A stretch of DNA of 64,000 nucleotides from Halopseudomonas pelagia (lineage in GTDB: Bacteria > Pseudomonadota > Gammaproteobacteria > Pseudomonadales > Pseudomonadaceae), in the NCBI RefSeq assembly GCF_009497895.1, contig NZ_CP033116.1, positions 1,178,001 to 1,242,000 on the forward strand, given 5' to 3'. The number at the start of each line of letters is the position of its first letter. Position 1 is the first letter of the stretch. A program made the translations under genes and the position numbers. Shown piece after piece: positions 36,824-48,287 of the stretch. The notes under the pieces are model-generated. The model did no database searches. It was given only the letters and a program-made list of their open reading frames with translations, and was not told the DNA's origin.

Positions 36824-37012
36824 GCGGGCAGTATATTCAAAAGCGGCAGAGGGCAATAGCCGCATGCTGTTAAGGAATGCGTTTGCTGTGCTGCAGGCCC
36901 GCTCGGCATGGCCCATGGGCGCAGTTTAAGGTATCCTGTCCGCCTTGTTTTTCGGTACGTTTACCGATACGCCGTATTTCCCTTTATCCAGCTTCCCGAG
37001 GCCGTATACAGC

Positions 37013-40000
37013 ATGCATACCCTGCGTGGCGCCCCAGCCCTTTCCGAATTTCGCCGTCAAAAACTGCTTGCCCGGCTCAAAGCCGCCGTGCCGGCCGTCA
37101 CTGGCGTTTATGCCGAGTTCATGCATTTCGCCGAGCTGCACAGCGAGCTGGATGAACAGCAGAATGAAGTGCTGGCGCGCCTGCTCAAGTACGGCCCGTC
37201 TGTGTCGGTGGAAGAGCCCCAGGGCAGTCTGTTTCTGATCGTGCCGCGCTTCGGCACCATCTCGCCCTGGTCGAGCAAGGCTACCGATATCGCCCACAAT
37301 TGCGGCCTGCAGAATGTCGCTCGCCTCGAGCGCGGCATTGTCTACCATGTCGCCGGTGATATCAGCGCCGAACAGCGCCCGCAACTGGCTGCACTGCTGC
37401 ATGACCGCATGACCGAGCTGGCGCTGGATGATCTGGACGCAGCCGCCAATCTTTTCCGCCACACCGAGCCACAACCCTTTCAACGTGTGGACATCCTCGA
37501 AGGCGGCCGCGAGGCGCTGGAGCAGGCCAACACCACATTGGGTCTGGCCCTGGCCGATGACGAGATCGATTATCTGGTCAGCAGCTTCAAGGAACTCAAG
37601 CGCAATCCTAGTGACGTCGAATTGATGATGTTCGCCCAGGCCAACTCCGAACATTGCCGGCACAAGATCTTCAACGCCACCTGGGATATCGACGGCCAGG
37701 CGGAAGAGAAGAGCCTGTTCGGCATGATCAAGAACACCTACCAGATGCGCAGCGAAGGCGTGCTGTCCGCCTATAAAGACAACGCCGCCGTGATTGAAGG
37801 CTTTGTCGCCGGGCGTTTCTTCCCGGTGCCGGGTACCTGCGAATACCGCACCCATGAAGAGCCCGTGCACATCCTGATGAAGGTGGAAACCCACAACCAC
37901 CCGACCGCGATTGCTCCGTTCCCCGGTGCTTCCACCGGCTCCGGTGGCGAGATCCGTGATGAAGGCGCCACCGGTCGTGGCGGCAAGCCCAAGGCTGGTC
38001 TGGCCGGCTTTACCGTATCCAACCTGCGTATTCCCGGTTTTGTTCAGCCCTGGGAAGAAGACAACGGCAAGCCCTCGCGCATCGTTACACCTTTGCAGAT
38101 CATGATTGAAGGCCCGCTGGGCGGCGCTGCGTTCAACAACGAATTTGGTCGTCCGAACCTCACCGGTTATTTCCGCACCTTCGAGCAGACCGTCAGCTCG
38201 CCACGCGGCCCGGAGATTCGCGGCTATCACAAGCCGATCATGATTGCCGGCGGCATGGGTAACATCCGTGCAGGCCACGTAGAGAAAGCTGAAATTCCGG
38301 TCGGCGCCAAGCTCATCGTACTCGGCGGCCCAGCCATGCTGATCGGTCTGGGCGGCGGCGCTGCCTCGTCCATGGCCACCGGCAGCAGTGCCGAAGACCT
38401 GGATTTTGCCTCCGTACAGCGGGAAAACCCCGAGATGGAACGCCGCTGCCAGGAAGTCATCGACCGCTGCTGGCAGATGGGCGACAAGAACCCCATCCGC
38501 TTTATTCATGACGTGGGCGCGGGCGGCCTGTCCAATGCCTTCCCCGAGCTGGTCAACGACGGCGGCCGCGGCGGCCGCTTTGAACTGCGCAACGTGCCGA
38601 ATGACGAGCCGGGCATGAGCCCGTTGGAAATCTGGTCCAACGAATCCCAGGAACGCTACGTGATGGCGGTGGATAACGCCGACTACGACCGCTTCCAGGC
38701 GATCTGCGAACGCGAGCGCTGCCCCTTTGCTGTCGTCGGCGAAGCCACCGAAGAACAACTGTTGGTACTCAACGACACGCATTTCGATAACCAGCCGGTA
38801 GACATGCCGCTGTCTGTACTGCTCGGCAAGCCGCCGCGCATGCACCGCAGCGTCGAGCGCGAAGCCGAGCCCTCGGATGACTTCGATGGCACCGGTCTGG
38901 CGCTGGACGAAGCCGTGCAGCGCGTATTGCGCCTGCCGTCGGTCGCCAGCAAGAACTTCCTGATCACCATTGGTGACCGCAGCATTACCGGCCTGGTCGC
39001 CCGCGATCAGATGGTTGGCCCCTGGCAGGTGCCGGTCGCCGACTGCGCGGTGACCAACAGCAGCTTCGACGTGCATACCGGTGAAGCCATGGCTCTGGGC
39101 GAGCGCACGCCGCTGGCGCTACTCGATGCCCCAGCCTCTGGCCGCATGGCCGTTGCTGAAGCCGTCACCAACCTGGCGGCTGCACGCATTGACGCCATTT
39201 CCGATATTCGCCTGTCTGCCAACTGGATGGCCGCCGCTGGCCACCCCGGTGAAGATGCACGCCTGTTCGACACCGTGCGCGCCGTAGGTATGGAACTGTG
39301 CCCCGAGCTGGGCATCACCATCCCGGTCGGCAAGGACTCCATGTCGATGAAGACTCGCTGGTCCGATTCCGGTGAAGACAAGTCCGTTACCTCACCCATG
39401 TCGCTGATCGTCACCGGCTTTGCCCCAGTACAGGATGTGCGCCTGACCCTGACGCCACAGCTGCAGCTGGACCAGGGCGATACCGATCTGATCCTGATCG
39501 ACCTCGGCCGTGGCCAGAACCGCCTGGGCGGCTCTGCGCTGGCGCAGGTGTATAACCAGATCGGCAAGACCGCTCCGGATCTGGACGACGCAGAAGACCT
39601 CAAGGCCTTCTTCGCCGTGATCCAGGGTCTGAACCAGGAAGAACAACTGCTGGCCTACCACGACCGTTCCGACGGTGGCCTGTTGACCACCCTGGCGGAG
39701 ATGGCCTTTGCCGGCCGTTGCGGTCTGCAAATTCAGCTGGACGTACTGGCTGACCAGGAAAGTGAACTGGGCGGTGCGCTGTTCAACGAAGAACTCGGCG
39801 CGGTGATTCAGGTGCGCCAGAGCGATACCGAAGCGGTCCTCAGCCAGCTGTCCGCAGCCGGCCTGGGCGACTGCAGCGCGGTGGTTGGCCAGCCAAGCCA
39901 GAATCAGGATCTGCACTTCACGTTTGCTGACAAAACCGTAGTCAGCGGCACCCGCGCCGCCTGGCAGCAAGCCTGGAGCGAAACCAGCTGGCAGATCCAG

Positions 40001-40909
40001 CGCCTGCGTGACAACGTCGAGTGCGCCGATCAGGAATTCGAGAACATCGCCGACGACGCCAACCCCGGCCTGGAAGCCATGCTCAGCTTCGACATCAATG
40101 AAGATGTCGCCGCGCCGCTGATCAACACCGGCAAGCGTCCGCAGGTCGCGATTCTGCGTGAGCAGGGTGTAAACGGTCAGGTCGAGATGGCCGCCGCTTT
40201 CAACCGCGCCGGCTTCAACCCGATCGACGTACACATGAGCGATATTCTCAGCGGTCGCGTAGAGCTGGAAGACTTCCGCGGGCTGGTCGCCTGTGGCGGT
40301 TTCTCCTACGGCGACGTACTCGGCGCCGGCGAAGGCTGGGCCAAATCCATCCTGTTCAACGCCGAAGCCCGCGAAGCCTTCAGCGCCTTCTTTGCCCGCC
40401 CGGATACCTTTACCCTGGGCGTGTGCAACGGCTGCCAGATGCTCTCCAACCTGCGCGAACTGATCCCCGGCAGCGAGCACTGGCCGCACTTTGTGCGCAA
40501 CAAGTCCGAGCAGTTTGAAGCGCGCGTAGCCATGGTAGAAGTGCAGGCGTCACCGTCGATCTTCCTCAACGGCATGGTCGGCTCACGCATGCCCATCGCC
40601 ATCGCCCACGGCGAAGGGCACGCCGAGTTTGCCGACAGCACCGCAGTCGATGCCTGCGAAGCCAGCAACAGCGTGGTACTGCGCTTTGTCGACAACCGTG
40701 GCCGCATGACCGAACGCTACCCCGGCAACCCCAACGGCTCGCCGCGTGGCATCACCGGCCTGACCACCCGCGACGGCCGCGTCACCATCATGATGCCGCA
40801 CCCCGAACGCGTGTTCCGCGCCTCACAGAACTCCTGGCACCCTCGTGACTGGAGCGAAGACGGCGCCTGGATGCGCATGTTCCGCAATGCGCGGGTATGG
40901 GTTGGCTAA
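37013..40909 (+). CDS. purL: Phosphoribosylformylglycinamidine synthase
   Basis: PurL is the large single-chain enzyme that makes FGAM from FGAR, ATP and glutamine in purine synthesis. The 1298-residue product has an N-terminal PurS-like part, the ATP-binding core ([33 protein letters not shown]) and a class I glutamine amidotransferase end. The nucleophile Cys is in [11 protein letters not shown] and the His/Glu pair in [12 protein letters not shown] 37013 is chosen over an upstream frame extension because it gives the family N-terminus ([14 protein letters not shown]). It is the last core gene before the accessory region. Confidence 0.97.
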
Positions 40910-40965: not shown

Positions 40966-41453
40966 CTTTCTGGGCCCATGCTGCTTAGAGCAAAACGGCT
41001 TGGACAAATCACCGCTCACTGCATTACCCTCGAACCGAGCAAAGGAATGCCAGTCACATCCCGCCTCCAGGCAAGGACAGCCTGCATTCCCTCCCAATAC
41101 TGGTTAAAGCAACTCCCCGACTTGTCCGTTAAGAGGATAGGGCGGTAGCGTGCCTGGAAAAGCCTTTGGTCCTCGAGTGGGCCATGGAACTGCCCGGTTT
41201 ACAGGAAAAATGATCACGGTGACCGACATATGGGCGTTGGCCACAGATGGTCAGTTTTTGGATTGAAAATCAGTTGGTTAGCAGAAACCTGGAAAATAAT
41301 GATATAAGGCTTGGGGATCGTTTTGTCGGTTATGTGGAAATTGATGGATAGGCGGAGAGGACCGGGTTGTGGGGGTTGTAGAGTACTAGGAGCAGGGTTA
41401 ATGAAAGCAGAACGATCACCGATATATTGGCCGGTGTGACTCATATTATAAAT
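40966..41453. other. Non-coding stretch between purL and the first cassette
   Basis: About 490 bases hold no supported gene; the open frames are short and poorly coded. Base composition becomes AT-rich from about 41200. A GTTAGCA is present at 41277-41283, but its pairing with the cassette end is worse than the one at 41454. No integrase gene, attI or integrase fragment could be recognised here, although any attI of this array would be expected in this stretch. Confidence 0.5.
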
Positions 41454-41454
41454 G

Positions 41455-42351
41455 TTAGCACCGACCGTTTAGGAGAAATCTTTAGAAATGGAAGTAGTTT
41501 TGGAGTTTATACACAATCCCTTGGCGCAAAGCCTACTGCTTGGCCCTTTAATGGGAGTGGTTTTTGCCGCTTTATTTTCAGGCTTGACGAAGTCTCCAGG
41601 GACGCAAGCTCCAGCAACGGTTACTCAAACAAGAACCATTTATGTGACTAAGGTTGTCGAGCGAAACCGGTCGTCAAGTGGATCAGATGATGGAATGGCA
41701 TTGTTAATAATAGGTGTATTTTCCCTAGTTTTTATACTTTGGAAATATGCTATATATTTCGATGCAGTTCAGTATTATTTGGCAACCGCAATATTATCAG
41801 TCCTGAGCTTTTCAGTTACGACAATTATTATATCTTTGGCTAAGGGGCACTATACATCGGATGATTGGTGGTTTTACACGACTGGCCCAATGATACTGCT
41901 TTGTGTTTCTGTCTACATACTTAATTTAGCGAAGATAAATTTCGACCCGAATATTCAGCAAGGTGCGCTAAACAACACCTTTTGGACCTTTTATACAGAT
42001 TGGTTAAGTGAGTACGGACGAAATTTTATGTTTGCTCATGTGTCAGGTGTTGCACTCCTTGCATTAGCGATTATTTTTATAGCGTTTTCATCAATCCATT
42101 ATCTGGCTCTGATGAATCAGCGTTCGCCTGGAGCGATGCAAAGATTTTGGTTTTTCTTAACAAGATATACCTCTTTTTTCTCAGGTAAGCTCTGGTTCAT
42201 ATTTGTGGGTTTTTTATTAGGTGCGGCTTACTTATTGATAAATCCAGATTTTGTCGCAAATTGGATAACCAGATAATAGTGCTAACAAACGGCTGCACAA
42301 CGACCGATTTTACGCCGCTTAGCAGCTCCAAACCGGCGTGTGAGCCGGGCG
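41455..42351 (+). mobile_element. Integron gene cassette 1 (about 0.9 kb)
   Basis: The stretch starts after G in G|TTAGCAC (41454-41461) and its attC begins with GTGCTAAC (42279-42286), the exact 8-base reverse complement. This is the hallmark of an integron cassette, in which the first bases of the cassette complete its own attC when circular. Codons are AT-rich, unlike purL. It carries one ORF (41488-42276) in the cassette-forward direction followed closely by the attC. The cassette reading is inference from these paired sites; no integrase gene lies in the window. Confidence 0.7.
41488..42276 (+). CDS. Hypothetical multi-pass membrane protein (cassette 1)
   Basis: I do not recognise this 262-residue protein. 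Six hydrophobic segments are visible at roughly residues 12-32, 70-88, 93-115, 130-148, 185-208 and 235-253. Between the first two lies a polar stretch rich in Thr, Ser and Arg (TVTQTRTIYVTKVVERNRSSSGSDDG). Loops contain HYTSDDWWFYTTG. There is no catalytic motif I can name. The start ATG has GGAGAAA upstream, within the first 35 bases of the cassette, as is usual for cassette genes. Low GC and different codon use from purL suggest transfer. Confidence 0.75.
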   Translation: MEVVLEFIHNPLAQSLLLGPLMGVVFAALFSGLTKSPGTQAPATVTQTRTIYVTKVVERNRSSSGSDDGMALLIIGVFSLVFILWKYAIYFDAVQYYLATAILSVLSFSVTTIIISLAKGHYTSDDWWFYTTGPMILLCVSVYILNLAKINFDPNIQQGALNNTFWTFYTDWLSEYGRNFMFAHVSGVALLALAIIFIAFSSIHYLALMNQRSPGAMQRFWFFLTRYTSFFSGKLWFIFVGFLLGAAYLLINPDFVANWITR

Positions 42352-42357
42352 TGGGCC
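42280..42357 (+). repeat. attC site of cassette 1 (slightly damaged)
   Basis: Core R'' is TGCTAAC (42280-42286). L'' CGGCTGCA (42290-42297) pairs with L' TGAGCCG (42341-42347) if one G is left unpaired, the extrahelical base that orients integrase on folded attC. Inside, ACGCCG and CGGCGT can also pair. The expected right core GTTGGGCC is present as GTGGGCC (42351-42357), one T short. The 78-base length is in the known attC range. Confidence 0.68.
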
Positions 42358-44637
42358 GCTATTTTGTGTTCGATATCCATCAACTTTTTTCAACAAAGGA
42401 CGAGGGTCTATGAGCGATCAGGGAATCAGTGAAGCGCAGATGAGGGGCTTTAGGTCGGCGGTTGAGTCACTTAAGTTGTACCGTCGCGCAGATCTCCATG
42501 ATCCGGATCAGGGTTCTCCATTGATCGAAGAACTCTATGTGGATCCGCTTCCTCATGAGGACGTCTTCAGAACCGCAATTAGGCCGCACACCACTTTTGT
42601 TATCGGTCGTAAAGGGACTGGGAAATCAACAATATTCCAGCGTCTCCAGCATGAACTAAGAAAAGGCGGCAGTAGTACATCCGCATATCTTGACATTAAG
42701 ACAATCTTCGAATCCTCCCAGCCGGATCAAGCGCTAATCAGCCGATTGGAATCAAGAAAAGATGCGCTTCCTCAGGAGGCAATAGAAAAGCTGGCGCTAT
42801 ATCGAGAGTTTCTTAAGGCGACGGTGACGCAAGTTCAAGAAGAACTGAAAAGGAGAATAAAGTCTTCTATTTGGGAAAGGATTAAGGAGTCATTCACTCA
42901 AACGTATGCGGAACTCTTTGACGAGCTTGATTCGTTGCTTGACTCTGCATCCGAAGATAATTTTGTAAGTGTTCTTGGTATTCTTGAAACGCAGTTAAAA
43001 GATACGGCGGCAAGCGGGGGTTCCTTCGAGAAGGAGTTGGGCATATCGGGCAGTTTCTCCGCAACGCCCAAAATTGCGGTTTCCGCAACAGAAAAATCGG
43101 CGCGTACCACAAGTGATGAGCGAGTGTCTGTGTATGGTGATGTTCTAATACGCGCATTCAACATTAGGGAGTTTCTTGATCGCCTGAAAAATCTCCTTTC
43201 AAAAATTGGAGTAAGGCATCTTTATATATTGGTCGATGATTTTTCAGAGCTCCCTGAAGAAGCAATGCGAGTAGTTGTTGATGCTCTAATCGCTCCCCTC
43301 AACAACTGGAGCGATGAATTCGTTAAGTTCAAGATTGCCGCATATCCAGGACGGATCTACTACGGGGCAATAGATAAGACCAAGATCGATGAAATTCATC
43401 TTGATCTTTATAGCCTATTTGGGACTAGTGATGTCTCAACAATGGAGGCTAACGCAGCTGCATTTACCCGGCGTCTTGTTGAGAGCCGTTTGGAGTACTT
43501 CACTAAACATGATTCGTCGATATTTTTTGATACCAAAAACGAAGAAGTTTGGCGAGTTCTTTTCTACGCGAGCATGGCCAACCCTAGAACTCTTGGATAC
43601 GTACTTCATTTCGCGTACCAGAACCAATTAATACATGGAAAGAAAATCGGTGTTCAAAGCATTCAAGATGCTTCACTCAAATACTACGAAGAGAAAATTG
43701 CATCGTATTTTTCGGTTGGTAGGTTTCTGCATGAGGCGTTCTCTGAGCGGTGCTCGATTTTTTCCCTAAAGGAACTCCTAGAAACTTTGGTTGTTAGATC
43801 AAAAGAACTAAGAACACATAAATCTGCTGTTTTCGAGAAGATCTCGGGGCGCCCGCCAACGAGCCACTTTCATGTGGTGCCCAGTTTCGATGGTCTTCTA
43901 TCAACGCTAGAGCTTAATTTCTTCCTCACTAAATACTTTGAAATGAGCGACAGAGATGGGAAGAAGGTTTCGGTGTATGCATTGAACTACGGGCTTTGTC
44001 AGCGATACACCATATCGTTCGGTCGGCCCTCCGGTGAGAGGGAGTTCCGGCTCTACTTTGTAGAACGAGTCTTTGATTACAGCTCTATTGTCTCCGCCTT
44101 TATAGCTAAGAATCAGGAAATAGTGTGCTCGAATTGCGGTGAAAAACACGGACTTGATAAGCTCGAGGCTCTGAAGCTATTTGGGATGAAGTGTCCGACG
44201 TGTCAAGTGGGCGTATGTGAGGTTGTAAACCTCTCGAAAAAATATGAGTCCGTCCTCATGAACGTGCAGTCTGAGTTGCTTTTGCCTAAAACAGAGCTTG
44301 GTATTCTGCAGGCTCTTCATACGGAAGGGGATGCCCAACGTCCGGCGTACATTGCAGCCGAGCTGGACTGTTCATATCAACTCGTTGGGAAGCGAGCGGT
44401 TCGGCTGGAGGATCGAGGTCTTGTTACAAGGTCTAAAGACGATGCGAACAATCGATTTATCCAGATAACTGACATTGCAGAATCAACCTACTTTACTGGC
44501 GATCATTCCGGTGAGCTTGATGTTGGCTCAGATCCCTAGCAATCAAGTACTTTGAGCGGGCATAAGCATTCCCGCGGCGCGGCCCAACCATTCGCTGCAG
44601 GCCGACGTCCCTGACGGGCCGCGCCTGAGCCCAAACG
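42352..44637 (+). mobile_element. Integron gene cassette 2 (about 2.3 kb)
   Basis: The left boundary reads GT-GGGCCGC (42351 onward) and the R'' core of its attC reads GGCCCAAC (44581-44588), reverse complement GTTGGGCC. They agree except for one missing T at the left, so the two belong together. The cassette carries one large ORF (42410-44539), bigger than most cassette genes. Base composition is AT-rich like cassettes 1 and 3. Confidence 0.68.
42410..44539 (+). CDS. P-loop ATPase with zinc ribbon and winged helix (cassette 2)
   Basis: I cannot assign a characterised family to this 709-residue protein. Residues 66-73 are a Walker A motif, GRKGTGKS, after HTTFV. A helical, charged insertion spans about 115-200. 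Residues 271-280 (LYILVDDFSE) are a Walker B with two acidic residues. Arginine-rich segments near 354-360 could supply a finger. A four-Cys zinc ribbon lies at 573, 576, 595 and 598, and a winged-helix-like region at about 622-690 (TELGILQALHTEGDAQ, then YIAAELDCSYQLVGKRAV). The layout is like ORC/Cdc6- or STAND-type ATPases that bind DNA. A defence or regulatory role is only inference. It has a GGACGAGG site before ATG 42410. Confidence 0.75.
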   Translation: MSDQGISEAQMRGFRSAVESLKLYRRADLHDPDQGSPLIEELYVDPLPHEDVFRTAIRPHTTFVIGRKGTGKSTIFQRLQHELRKGGSSTSAYLDIKTIFESSQPDQALISRLESRKDALPQEAIEKLALYREFLKATVTQVQEELKRRIKSSIWERIKESFTQTYAELFDELDSLLDSASEDNFVSVLGILETQLKDTAASGGSFEKELGISGSFSATPKIAVSATEKSARTTSDERVSVYGDVLIRAFNIREFLDRLKNLLSKIGVRHLYILVDDFSELPEEAMRVVVDALIAPLNNWSDEFVKFKIAAYPGRIYYGAIDKTKIDEIHLDLYSLFGTSDVSTMEANAAAFTRRLVESRLEYFTKHDSSIFFDTKNEEVWRVLFYASMANPRTLGYVLHFAYQNQLIHGKKIGVQSIQDASLKYYEEKIASYFSVGRFLHEAFSERCSIFSLKELLETLVVRSKELRTHKSAVFEKISGRPPTSHFHVVPSFDGLLSTLELNFFLTKYFEMSDRDGKKVSVYALNYGLCQRYTISFGRPSGEREFRLYFVERVFDYSSIVSAFIAKNQEIVCSNCGEKHGLDKLEALKLFGMKCPTCQVGVCEVVNLSKKYESVLMNVQSELLLPKTELGILQALHTEGDAQRPAYIAAELDCSYQLVGKRAVRLEDRGLVTRSKDDANNRFIQITDIAESTYFTGDHSGELDVGSDP

Positions 44638-44643
44638 TTAAGC
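44582..44643 (+). repeat. attC site of cassette 2 (intact)
   Basis: R'' GCCCAAC (44582-44588) fits RYYYAAC and R' GTTAAGC (44637-44643) fits GTTRRRY. L'' GCTGCAGGC (44594-44602) pairs with L' GCCTGAGC (44623-44630) when one G is extrahelical. Spacers between R and L boxes are 5 and 6 bases. The total length is 62 bases. All consensus features of an attC recombination site are present. Confidence 0.85.
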
Positions 44644-44687
44644 CGTTTCTGGTTCAACGAATTTCACATAGAAGATGTAGAACACTG

Positions 44688-45230
44688 ATGCCATTATTTA
44701 AATCTATTAAGAATCAGTTTTTGGTAAAACATACGCCAAAGGCATCAGAAATTGTGGTTAGCAAAAAAGCGCACAAGATTGCCAATATCCTGTTAACAGT
44801 CGGCATCCTCGTTCTTCCCCTCAGTTTCGCAGTAGTGGTCTATAAGATTTTGTTTTTTAATGGTTTGAAGCTTGACGTTGGTGAGTTTGTCTTCTCTTTA
44901 CTGATGCTGGGTGTTGTTATTGCTTTTATTTCAGCTATTAAAACATTAGTTGGTTTAATAAATGCGCACTCGAATTATCTGCGTGGAGTTAAGGAGCGCA
45001 GGTTGAAAGTCGCGTGTGCAACAATGGCTTCATATACGTTCACCATTTACATGGCGTTTTTTAGCGTGAATGAAGTATACCTTTTGGGAAAATACAATGA
45101 CGGAGCACATGAAGGCGTTTGTACGGTATACGTTCCGAATGGTGCAAAGACAGATATCTGTATTGATTACGAAGAGTCGAAGGAAAATGAAACCTCGCTG
45201 ATGAGTAGGGCATTGTACTTCTTGAACTAA
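44688..45230 (+). CDS. Hypothetical membrane protein (cassette 3)
   Basis: I do not recognise this 180-residue protein. Three hydrophobic segments are visible at about residues 30-55 (ANILLTVGILVLPLSFAVVV), 66-86 and 108-126. The N-terminus is basic and the C-terminal 50 residues are polar, with two Cys in CTVYVPNGAKTDICIDY, probably outside the cytoplasm. The gene is AT-rich and lies in cassette orientation, with the cassette start 50 bases upstream. Any link with the ATPase of cassette 2 is only by position. Confidence 0.7.
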   Translation: MPLFKSIKNQFLVKHTPKASEIVVSKKAHKIANILLTVGILVLPLSFAVVVYKILFFNGLKLDVGEFVFSLLMLGVVIAFISAIKTLVGLINAHSNYLRGVKERRLKVACATMASYTFTIYMAFFSVNEVYLLGKYNDGAHEGVCTVYVPNGAKTDICIDYEESKENETSLMSRALYFLN

Positions 45231-45237
45231 TCGATTG

Positions 45238-45279
45238 GCTTGACAATCGGCTGCACGGCGACCGATTTTCCGCTGCTTC
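45238..45279 (+). repeat. Truncated attC of cassette 3
   Basis: R'' GCTTGAC and L'' CGGCTGCA are present, then CGGCGACCGATTTT close to the matching part of attC 1. The L' and R' half is lost at the IS junction at 45280, and it is not found on the far side of the IS. Confidence 0.6.
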
Positions 45280-45305
45280 GGGTTCTACCCCGTTTCCACG
45301 GACGG

Positions 45306-46103
45306 TTATAAAACGGCTGTGAGCTTCCGATCCTGAACAGCAACTCTACGTCGCATCCTGGGGTTATGGAACCGCTCGATGTATTCAAACAGATCAGCTC
45401 TTGCCTCGTCCTGCGTACGGTAACGCCGATGGTGTACTCGCTCTCGTTTTAGCATGCCGAAGAACCCCTCACAGGCTGCGTTGTCTCCGCAATGGCCAAC
45501 CGCGCTCATGCTGCTGACCAAATCGTTACTGCCTAGATATCGCTGGTAATCACCGCTGGTAAACTGACTGCCTCGGTCTGAATGCAGTATTACTGGGGTT
45601 TCGCCCTGACGTTGCCAGACAGCCATTTGAACAGCTCTGATTACCATCTGCCGATCCTGCCGGTGGTGCATAGACCAGCCAACGATCAGCTTGCTGAATA
45701 AATCCAGAACCACGCAGAGAAATAGTTTTCCTTCCTGGGTGGAGATCTCCGTAATGTCAGTGACCCATTTGGTATCAGGTTCCAGTGCGGAGAAATCCCG
45801 TTCAAGGTGATTTTGAATACCTTGTGGCCGATTTGATGCGCGTCCGAGGCGTCCTCGCTTCCTACGGGGCCACCCCTGAATGCCGTGCTTGGCCATTAGC
45901 CTTGCAACACGATTCAGGCTGGCTGCAACGCCTTCGGCAGCCAAGTCTTCGTGCATTCGGGGCGACCCAAGCATTCCGCCACTGTCATCGTGAATCTCTC
46001 TGATACGCGACAGCAGACGGTCGTTCGCTCTTGCCCTGCTGGACTGCGGACGAGATGCCCAAGCGTAATAGCCGCTGGCCGATACCTTCAGGCAACGACA
46101 CAT
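45306..46103 (-). CDS. IS3-family transposase OrfB (DDE integrase domain)
   Basis: The product contains the IS3-type rve integrase core: KWVTDITEI (first Asp), [17 protein letters not shown] (second Asp) and [15 protein letters not shown] (Glu), with an N-terminal HTH_21-like region ([12 protein letters not shown]). The frame stays open upstream of ATG 46103 into the end of orfA, so the active protein is probably made by a -1 frameshift. A CAAAG followed by GGAG at the end of orfA is a plausible slip site. All catalytic residues are present, so it could be functional. Confidence 0.88.
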
Positions 46104-46150
46104 AAGACGTATCGGGAAAAGACTGCGACAGTGTTGAATCGTCTGATACC

Positions 46151-46444
46151 TCAGGACGACTCCTTTGCAAAGAACACTGCCGCTTCGCGCAAAAAATCAC
46201 GTTCCTTTTTTACCCGTGCCAGTTCCCGCTTCAAGTGGGCAAGCTCTTCGTCACGCGGCGTTCCCGAGCCCTTGAAGGCCTTGCTTGGCAATTCTTCGGC
46301 TTCACGCGCCCACCGGGACAACAGGTTGGGATTAATTCCAATCTCTAAGGCCACCTGGCGGCAATTGGCACCTGGCTGGCGAGATAGCGCGATGGCTTCG
46401 CGCTTGAATTCGGGGCTGTATCTTCTGCGTTTGGACATGAACAC
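46151..46444 (-). CDS. IS3-family transposase OrfA
   Basis: The 97-residue product has the HTH_Tnp_1 domain ([40 protein letters not shown]) and a C-terminal leucine-zipper-like helix ([28 protein letters not shown]). It binds the IS ends and joins OrfB by frameshifting. ATG 46438 (MSKRRRYS) is an equally good start. An AAAGGAGTG site lies upstream. Confidence 0.88.
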
Positions 46445-46501
46445 TCCTTTGGCACATTGTGCCTTTTTTCAAAAGTGTCCGCAGTAACGGGGTAGAACCC
46501 A

Positions 46502-46903
46502 TCCCGCGCCCCGCTAGAAAAGTTGGTAGCCTACCAAAGGCGCATGGGCTGGACTGCCCGATGGGTGTCCTCCCAGGGCTCCGATTTCAACTTTGACTTT
46601 CAGGTCTCTTTCGTGCGGGAGGACTTGGAGGCTGGGCGGCTCTACTACAATTACGAAAATATCGAAGATCCGAAATACTTCAGCGAAGAATTGCCCGGCC
46701 TCAGCGTTTTTTACAAGGACGACAGCGGCGCAGTGTTCCACACTTACTCTAGCTACGCCCGCGGCAATGAGGAGGTGATTGGCGCCTTCGTTTATCTCGA
46801 CATCACGCCCAAAGGCCGCAACGAGAAGGAAATCATGGATTGGGTGCGGCGTCACGATGAGTACGACGCAAGCCCGGCAGTTACGGCCTGTCACTCCGGC
46901 TGA
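46502..46903 (+). pseudogene. DUF899-type (thioredoxin-like) protein, N-terminal half lost
   Basis: From the IS end the frame reads SRAPLEKLVAYQRRMGW, then WVSSQGSDFNFDFQVSF, and ends with LSVFYKDDSGAVFHTYSSYARG and VYLDITPKGRNEKE. This is the C-terminal half of DUF899-family proteins, which are normally about 230-260 residues. The reading frame is open right up to the IS boundary at 46500, so the IS side carries the break. The missing N-terminal half is not on the other side of the IS. A TTG at 46523 could start a remnant peptide. Confidence 0.75.
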
Positions 46904-47101
46904 GTGCAGAGATTAACTCGGCGAATCCTTGGAGCGGGTCCGTGAGACCGCCATCATCATTCCTATGCCGAAAACGATCAGGCAAGCGATGCCGATGTAT
47001 AGCGTATCCACGCCTGCGGTTACTAGCCCCGGTAATCCCCCCAAAAAACAGCGGTGATTAGAAGTAGAATTTTCCGTAAGCTATTTGGAGGGAGATTCTG
47101 C

Positions 47102-47368
47102 ATGAAGACATCACGTTTTACCGACAGCCAGATCATGGCGATTCTGAAACAAGCCGAGAGCGGCATACCGGTGCCGGAGCTCTGCCGCGAACACGGTATG
47201 AGCAGTGCCAGTTTTTACAAGTGGCGAGCGAAATTCGGCGGCATGGATACGTCCATGATCAAGCGCATGAAAGAGCTAGAAGATGAGAACCGGCGGCTGA
47301 AAAAAATGTACGCCGAAGAGCGCCTCAAATCCGAGTTACGCAAGGAGGCTCTTGAGGGAAAGTGGTAA
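47102..47368 (+). CDS. IS3-family transposase OrfA (second IS)
   Basis: The 88-residue product has an HTH_Tnp_1 domain ([42 protein letters not shown]) and a coiled-coil end ([29 protein letters not shown]). A GGAGGGAG site lies before ATG 47102. It overlaps orfB by a few bases. Confidence 0.9.
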
Positions 47369-48189
47369 AGCCATCTCTTCGCCGCGAGATGGCGCAAAAA
47401 ACTGTTGCAGCTGGTCGCTGTAGTATTCGCCTGGCCTGTGTAGCCTTCAGTGTCAGTGAGTCCTGCTATCGCTACCAGGCCAGGCTCAACAGTGAGAATT
47501 CCGAGATCGCGGACCTTCTGGTTCGGTTGACCCATAACCAGCGCAACTGGGGTTTTGGATTGTGTTTTCTGTATCTGCGCAACGTAAAGGGATACCTCTG
47601 GAACCATAAACGTGTTTATCGAATTTATCGGGAACTGGAACTGAACCTGCGCATCAAGCCCCGTAAACGCTTGGTACGCGAGAAACCCGAGCCACTCGCG
47701 GTGCCCACGGTAATCAATGCCAGCTGGTCTATGGACTTCATGCACGACCAGTTAGAAGATGGTCGCAGCTACCGGCTGTTCAATGTGATTGACGATTACA
47801 ACCGGGAAGGTCTTGGCATTGAAGTAGACCTGTCGCTGCCTTCTGAGCGCGTCATACGGGCTCTGGATCAGATCATTGAATGGCGAGGAAAGCCCGTCCA
47901 GATCCGCTGTGACAATGGACCGGAATACATCAGTGCTACGCTGGCTGCCTGGGCTGAGAAGCAGGGCATTGCACTGGCCTTTATCCAGCCCGGCAACCCG
48001 CAGCAGAATGCGTACATCGAGCGCTACAATCGCACCGTGCGCTACGACTGGCTGGCCCAATACCTGTTCGACTCCATTGAGGAGGTTCAGGAATATGCAA
48101 CTCGGTGGCTATGGACCTACAATAATGAACGGCCAAACATGGCCTTGGGTGGTATCACGCCCCGACAGAAGTTGGCCATGGTGGCCTGA
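47362..48189 (+). CDS. IS3-family transposase OrfB (second IS)
   Basis: The 275-residue product has an HTH_21 region ([15 protein letters not shown]) and an rve core with DDE residues in [21 protein letters not shown] and [14 protein letters not shown]. It ends with [18 protein letters not shown], typical of IS407-group IS3 elements. It may be produced as an OrfAB fusion by frameshift at the orfA end, or by coupling. It lies against the right IS end. Confidence 0.92.
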
Positions 48190-48287
48190 CTCTACTTCTG
48201 AGCTCCGCTAATAATGGGGGGATTACCCCCCCACGCAATGCCGCCGACGGTCAAAACAAGGCCGATCATATAAATCAAAAACGACAT

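Follow-up and report, generated by a model that had tools for sequence, protein, structure and literature searches.

The window analysed here is a stretch of 64,000 nucleotides of the Halopseudomonas pelagia chromosome (G000:C1:1178001-1242000; a single contig of 4,550,643 bases). Directly behind a host gene that we take to be purL, it carries three units that the original prediction had read as integron cassettes with no integrase gene (intI) beside them, that is, as a cluster of attC sites lacking integron-integrases (CALIN). The limits of the array had been drawn incompletely in that prediction: the attI site at its head, the leader with its ops (operon polarity suppressor) element between purL and attI, and the insertion sequence (IS) that cuts its far end were overlooked. 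The features are given below by position in the window, strand and description, with ORF standing for open reading frame; the names purL, rimO and rho are assumed by us from the sequence and not taken from a family search.

36908..40909, +: purL, the host gene ahead of the platform (ORF of 1333 aa; one match in 57 of the 58 genomes searched)
40997..41156, +: conserved leader with a promoter-like start (TTGGACA at 41000), ending in ops (alignment of 46 loci)
41141..41152, + (cassette strand, non-template): ops element GGCGGTAGCGTG, an exact match to ops12 of PMC5995543 and the sole exact copy in the window
41408..41457, +: attI of type B (model R3, 54.5 bits, E=4.7e-14; the window site is among the 11 in the model)
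41454-41461, +: cassette start GTTAGCAC, positioned exactly from the sequence
41455..42351, +: cassette 1 (ORF 41488-42276, 262 aa, with no Pfam, NCBIfam or PADLOC match)
42279-42357, +: attC1 (77.3 bits, E=1.2e-21, with a model built without attC1)
42352..44637, +: cassette 2 (ORF 42410-44539, a 709-aa ATPase; weak AAA/ORC-CDC6-like and MarR matches, below cut-offs)
44581-44644, +: attC2, of a short type (anatomy and bottom-strand fold; 14.1 bits, E=0.14)
44638..45279, +: cassette 3, with a truncated attC (ORF 44688-45230, 180 aa, with no Pfam, NCBIfam or PADLOC match)
45237..45279, +: left half of attC3 (21.8 bits, E=0.0005; the right half of the match extends into the IS)
45280..46500, -: IS of 1221 bp, outside the array, with rve and HTH_21 domains and GGGTTCTACC ends, cutting attC3 (domain search)

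The analysis has confirmed, at the level of sequence, that this stretch is a genuine integron cassette array, parked at an attI without an adjoining integrase gene. The complementarity between cassette starts and R'' cores and the extra G of L'' that had been reported for the three units are present, at positions 1-2 bases away from those first given. In attC1, R'' (GTGCTAAC) is complementary to the cassette start at 8 of 8 positions, and R' reads GTGGGCC, with one T absent. The cores of attC2 are GGCCCAAC (R'') and GTTAAGCC (R'), and R'' of attC3 (GGCTTGAC, at 45237-45244) differs from GTTAAGCC by one mismatch. The additional G of L'' is seen as CGGCT[G]CAC against GTGAGCCG and as GCT[G]CAGGC against GCCTGAGC. 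Exact 8-mer pairs of the cassette kind are not rare, being found at 33 of the 916 GTT starts in the window; consequently, the weight of the identification is carried by the score of an attC covariance model and by the breakpoint between sister species.

The model was built from 15 attC sites of relatives, excluding those of the window, and was run over the entire window with filters off. Across its 15 sites, both partners of a pair have changed in 16 cells, against a mean of 7.2 in shuffled alignments, and pairing holds in 92.6% of the cells, as opposed to 25-43% with the partners slid. Four pairs show a double change, which does not exceed the level of shuffled alignments, as 215 of 500 reach this number. 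This search, which the original prediction had proposed, recovered attC1 and attC3 and gave attC2 a weak score. Because the best match outside the array reaches 13.1 bits, the model fails to separate attC2 from background, and attC2 is thus recognised by its anatomy and its bottom-strand fold. The left half of attC3 is also up to 97% identical over 34 bp to attC sites of relatives (blastn). When folded as single-stranded DNA, as had likewise been suggested, the bottom strand is favoured for attC1 (-18.9 versus -14.6 kcal/mol for the top strand; z -1.66) and for attC2 (-17.3 versus -12.9 kcal/mol; z -1.63), both z values being modest. The preference is reversed for attC3 (bottom -14.4, top -18.0), whose right half is replaced by the IS from 45280. 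At least two attC sites define a CALIN, and the array has attC1 and the left half of attC3, with attC2 added by anatomy. The reading as integron cassettes of CALIN type with no intI beside them is therefore upheld by the attC matches together with the lack of an integrase above the TIGR02249 cut-off.

Comparison with two relatives in the same genus as the window genome (G000), H. pelagia CL-AP6 (G011) and H. laoshanensis Y22 (G023), places the head of the array to the base. Both align with the window from inside purL through 41457 (88% for G023 and 83% for G011). Past this point homology ends, at the GTTA of the cassette start, and other ORFs and attC sites follow. Thus, the three genes are not fixed core genes, as the two nearest relatives examined carry others after attI. 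In this type-B attI, crossover is expected at G|TT, 41454/41455.

Integrase types and attI platforms across the genus

The attI of the window belongs with an integrase, IntI-B, whose gene lies elsewhere. Over 57 bp it shares 84% identity with the attI that adjoins IntI-B in G011 (11-site alignment), and it matches the attI sites next to full-length IntI-B in G011 (where the integrase lies beside rimO), G029 and G020. In G000, IntI-B is present as an 82-residue remnant, 95% identical to that of G011, with an attI-B-like site about 0.2 kb away. No integron integrase above the TIGR02249 cut-off was found in the whole 4.55-Mb chromosome, no IntI-B similarity was found in the window at E<=0.1, and between 40861 and 41500 no similarity to IntI-A or IntI-B beyond chance was seen (best E=2.3). 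Of the parts of a complete integron, then, the purL locus has an attI, as predicted by its sequence, and has no intI in cis. In H. pelagia CL-AP6 (G011), a second, decayed intI-B with an attI-B of its own lies some 10 kb from the intact one (L155, G011:C9:312001-327500).

An integrase gene is a frequent neighbor of purL in the genus: an intI match lies within about 1 kb of the purL 3' end in 21 of the 36 other genus genomes, several of them broken. These purL integrons are of type A (for example in G008), with an attI that ends in GGTCTAATCACTGTTA, an ending absent from the window. The array was considered as a leftover of such a purL-linked type-A integron, and this was rejected because its attI is of type B and cannot be aligned with attI-A regions. 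Furthermore, intI-B was found at purL in no genome examined, and the intI-less purL arrangement with a type-B attI is common to four species (G000, G011, G023 and G031). The description of the array as a CALIN stands, and its description as a mere remnant or outlier of a chromosomal integron is incomplete.

In a scan of 37 genus genomes with sequence models built from 20 attI-A and 11 attI-B sites, matches at E<=0.01 that resemble attI-A were found in 30 of the 37 and those that resemble attI-B in 7, the weakest being doubtful and the first pass having scored only about 150 candidates per genome. For comparison, 19 attI sites remote from intI were taken; none of these regions has IntI similarity at E<=1e-3, and 15 of the 19 are followed by attC on the same strand, none having been found in L255, L256, L258 and L261. 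Six species (G003, G007, G008, G026, G035 and G036) share an intI-less attI locus beside a class I tRNA-synthetase gene, where identity is 86-95% over 2.5 kb upstream to attI and the alignments stop at 0 to +3. Genomes G005 and G026 have a like pattern behind the DNA polymerase III alpha gene (95%), and G000, G023 and G011 at purL are similarly alike up to attI and dissimilar past it. There are, judging from these matches, many intI-less attI platforms in Halopseudomonas genomes, and the differing first cassettes at shared platforms argue for an integrase acting in trans.

Two of these platforms lie elsewhere in G000. At 4.05 Mb (L121 10752-11189, G000:C1:4050752-4051189), there is another ops-attI-B platform, which shares 81% identity with window 41019-41457 and heads a second array whose attC matches are weak (23.2 and 17.1 bits). 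That array carries another copy of the window IS and what is presumably an IS30-like gene, and the platform shares its host locus with a platform in G023. The other is an attI-A-like site at 1468010 (L257, G000:C1:1458500-1471000; E=1.5e-8), with an attC 1.3 kb downstream (51.3 bits); ops is absent from the 1.5 kb upstream of it.

The ops leader and RfaH

A conserved leader precedes attI in both the integrase-bearing and the integrase-less platforms, and its most constant part is GGCGGTAGCGTG, which is the ops12 element for RfaH recruitment used in structural work on RfaH (PMC5995543). Its occurrence was counted at 54 distinct attI sites in the loci examined, allowing at most 1 mismatch within 1.5 kb upstream. 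It was found on the cassette strand at 38 of the 54 sites and on the other strand at none, although 38 of 54 is not an unbiased rate, since the sites are interrelated and some loci were initially located by means of the leader. By type, ops precedes 25 of 40 attI-A and 13 of 14 attI-B sites; by integrase, 24 of 37 sites without any IntI alignment and 14 of 17 with one. The spacing between ops and attI is tightly grouped. In type A, the seven sites that have both ops and an IntI alignment of at least 210 residues are spaced at 1192-1196 bp; of the 15 that have ops but lack IntI, 12 fall at 198-207 bp and the other three at 231, 241 and 264 bp. In type B the spacing is 1327-1332 bp in three sites with full IntI and 273-328 bp in nine without. 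The difference between sites with and without intI is thus about one intI gene. At the pnp locus the same leader is followed by attI-B in G031 and by attI-A in G011 (L156 and L256), as if attI modules had been exchanged behind a fixed ops leader.

The genome of the window encodes RfaH (TIGR01955, 162.7 bits against a cut-off of 144.5), as do 29 of the 37 genus genomes and 1 of 14 control genomes when scored by that cut-off. In its chromosome the 15-base pattern GGCGGTAGCGTGYCT occurs three times: before the purL attI, before the 4.05-Mb attI, and about 260 bp behind rfaH, where it precedes genes for polysaccharide export and synthesis (Poly_export, Wzz, CpsB_CapC and a sugar transferase). An ops element between rfaH and a polysaccharide operon is the familiar setting of RfaH.

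The motif was also considered as specific to integrons, and this was rejected: across the order, 65 of the 390 genomes contain the 15-base pattern, compared with 10 for the backward control, and IntI lies within 1.5 kb at only 1 of 30 order-wide loci. The 29 loci that lack it indicate that ops is a general RfaH site rather than a mark of integrons. When 13 further intI loci were checked for ops behind intI, 2 had it and 11 did not; of the latter, 8 are from other families and 3 are other-type integrases in genus genomes (one with 2 bases of sequence there). The two positive loci, L037 and L187, are both from G043, of another family, and in each an exact ops follows the aligned end of intI at a distance of 19-24 bp; G043 carries ten copies of the 15-base pattern.

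The leader was first read as a small RNA, a reading that found no support. Rfam gave nothing usable for the leader (no match up to E=5, save a below-threshold microRNA-family match further downstream), and single-sequence folding gave no signal (z 0.03).

Cassette cargo and the far end of the array

The genes carried are typical of cassettes, namely two proteins without a family match and the 709-residue ATPase. The ATPase (42410-44539) bears a remote likeness to the DS41_1 anti-phage protein (59.3 bits against a cut-off of 370), and its named homologues come from several phyla. By its sequence, it may be a defence gene.

Three other full copies of the IS in the genome have 3-bp flanking repeats (CTC, CAG and GAG). 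The window copy has none, with TTC and ATC at its sides, so that the far side has probably been lost since it inserted. The other half of attC3 was not seen by eye in the 60 bases adjoining the three full copies and one partial copy. The attC model, which was not designed for half sites, likewise gave no match in the IS-copy regions L120, L122 and L123; the copy in L121 sits inside the second array. Beyond the IS, window 46501-48230 holds a 126-residue open frame that resembles the end of a longer gene, and then, from 47054 to 48189, another IS with rve domains, flanked by copies of a short GGGGGATTACC-like repeat.

Explanations and meaning

Taken together, these results have led to the proposal that the array is a satellite integron platform: a leader with ops, an attI and cassettes, with no intI of its own, which would be filled in trans and transcribed with antitermination by RfaH. 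The probability of this reading is put at roughly 70%. In this model, an IntI-B encoded elsewhere in the genome would have recognised the purL attI and placed the cassettes there before it broke in this lineage. RNA polymerase would start upstream, in the leader (putatively at the TTGGACA at 41000), pause at ops, take up RfaH, and then read through attI and the cassettes without an early stop. In the integrons that bear intI, the transcript would pass antisense through intI on its way to attI. Since IntI-B is now a fragment in G000, the array is probably frozen.

Several results weigh against this proposal. With no intact IntI-B in G000 and G023, action in trans there must be a thing of the past, and the T missing from R' may impair attC1. 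In the leader, a consensus scan reported no promoter, TTGGACA included; the one promoter-like site that it returned, at 41401-41428, compares with 0.5 expected by chance. Besides the bias in the ops count noted above, ops is missing within 1.5 kb at 16 of the 54 attI sites. Of the 28 type-A sites that lack IntI, 13 belong to this group, one of them with no more than 436 bases of upstream sequence. Finally, RfaH falls below the cut-off in 8 of the 37 genus genomes, some of them with ops-attI platforms, and one such genome, G004 (a draft of 92% completeness), has no RfaH match.

Alternatively, the platform may be as described while ops does not recruit RfaH for expression of the cassettes; the leader would then have a different role, such as marking a favoured site for the insertion of integron modules or encoding a small RNA. 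The entire leader, beyond ops, is conserved over the 46 loci, and at pnp it is kept while the type of attI differs, both of which would fit such a role. However, the 12-mer is exactly the ops of the RfaH structural work (PMC5995543), it is restricted to the cassette strand, the genome encodes RfaH with a polysaccharide operon behind its third ops copy, and neither Rfam nor folding gives a signal for an RNA. This alternative is consequently considered unlikely, if still a credible one.

It is rather improbable that the array is a plain remnant, in which a complete purL integron would have lost its intI and left the cassettes as a decaying CALIN without ongoing recombination. Such a history is suggested by the many intI matches near purL in the genus, several of them broken, by the intI-B fragment that is all that G000 retains, and by the damage of the IS to the end of the array. 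However, the purL integrons of the genus are of type A and the window attI is of type B, and the intI-less arrangement at purL is found in four species, with a like arrangement recurring at unrelated loci. Furthermore, the first cassettes of G000, G023 and G011 diverge exactly at attI, which RecA recombination between attC sites would not yield. Exchange of the purL-attI-array stretch between strains by homologous recombination, with intI still in cis in some of them, is a distinctly poor candidate: the flanks are similar enough for exchange (85-95%) and intI-B loci are present in the genus, but at purL and other loci alike the upstream sequence diverges in step with species through the final base of attI, where homology ends abruptly, whereas the ends of exchanged tracts would be expected at varied places, and no genome examined has intI-B at purL.

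The components of the satellite platform, that is, integrons, CALINs, attI and RfaH with ops, are already known. The window array resembles a CALIN in being an attC array without a neighboring intI, and differs in its head, a true attI found repeatedly at fixed loci in several species. It shares its attC family, attI type and ops leader with the sedentary chromosomal integron of Halopseudomonas (intI-A at purL, intI-B beside rimO in G011), from which it differs in having no intI between ops and attI, a distance shorter by about one intI gene. Like the RfaH/ops operons, it has an exact ops in the leader before a long, horizontally acquired string of genes, and rfaH in the genome; here, however, the string is an integron cassette array. 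The main text of a paper on RfaH evolution does not contain the word integron (PMC7593976). The recurrent CALIN loci of Xanthomonas likewise lie at repeated places away from intI, with no attI reported in the available part of that account (PMC12444791). In the Delta-attI-type cassettes of mobile integrons, attI is also away from its usual place, but there, as described in part of PMC12901181, it is partial and lies inside cassettes, whereas in the window a whole attI heads the array. A search of the open-licence literature found nothing on attI-headed, intI-less arrays at recurrent loci or on RfaH/ops leaders before integron arrays.

The action in trans of an integrase encoded elsewhere has been proposed as one origin of CALINs (PMC8618304). 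A survey counted 2961 CALINs, 2760 complete integrons and 356 In0, so that CALINs make up about half of integron-like elements, and it describes them as proposed degraded integrons (PMC9024848). The same source states that IntegronFinder detects no attI outside class 1, which may explain why attI heads have gone unseen, perhaps also at the Xanthomonas loci. If a share of CALINs are attI-headed platforms filled in trans, the integron would be a system of one integrase and many docking sites.

For Halopseudomonas, it is somewhat probable that the integron is distributed in this way: one integrase gene would serve scattered attI platforms beside housekeeping genes, each with its own cassettes and most with an RfaH/ops leader, and the strings would be read as antiterminated operons, the array of the window having been orphaned when IntI-B broke. 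Integron biology has a standing question in how cassettes distant from attI come to be expressed. An ops before attI offers a specific answer, in which RfaH would carry RNA polymerase through the array and, in the integrons that bear intI, also antisense across intI. Thus, the ops signal found ahead of most of the docking sites examined may help the cell to read the whole cassette string.

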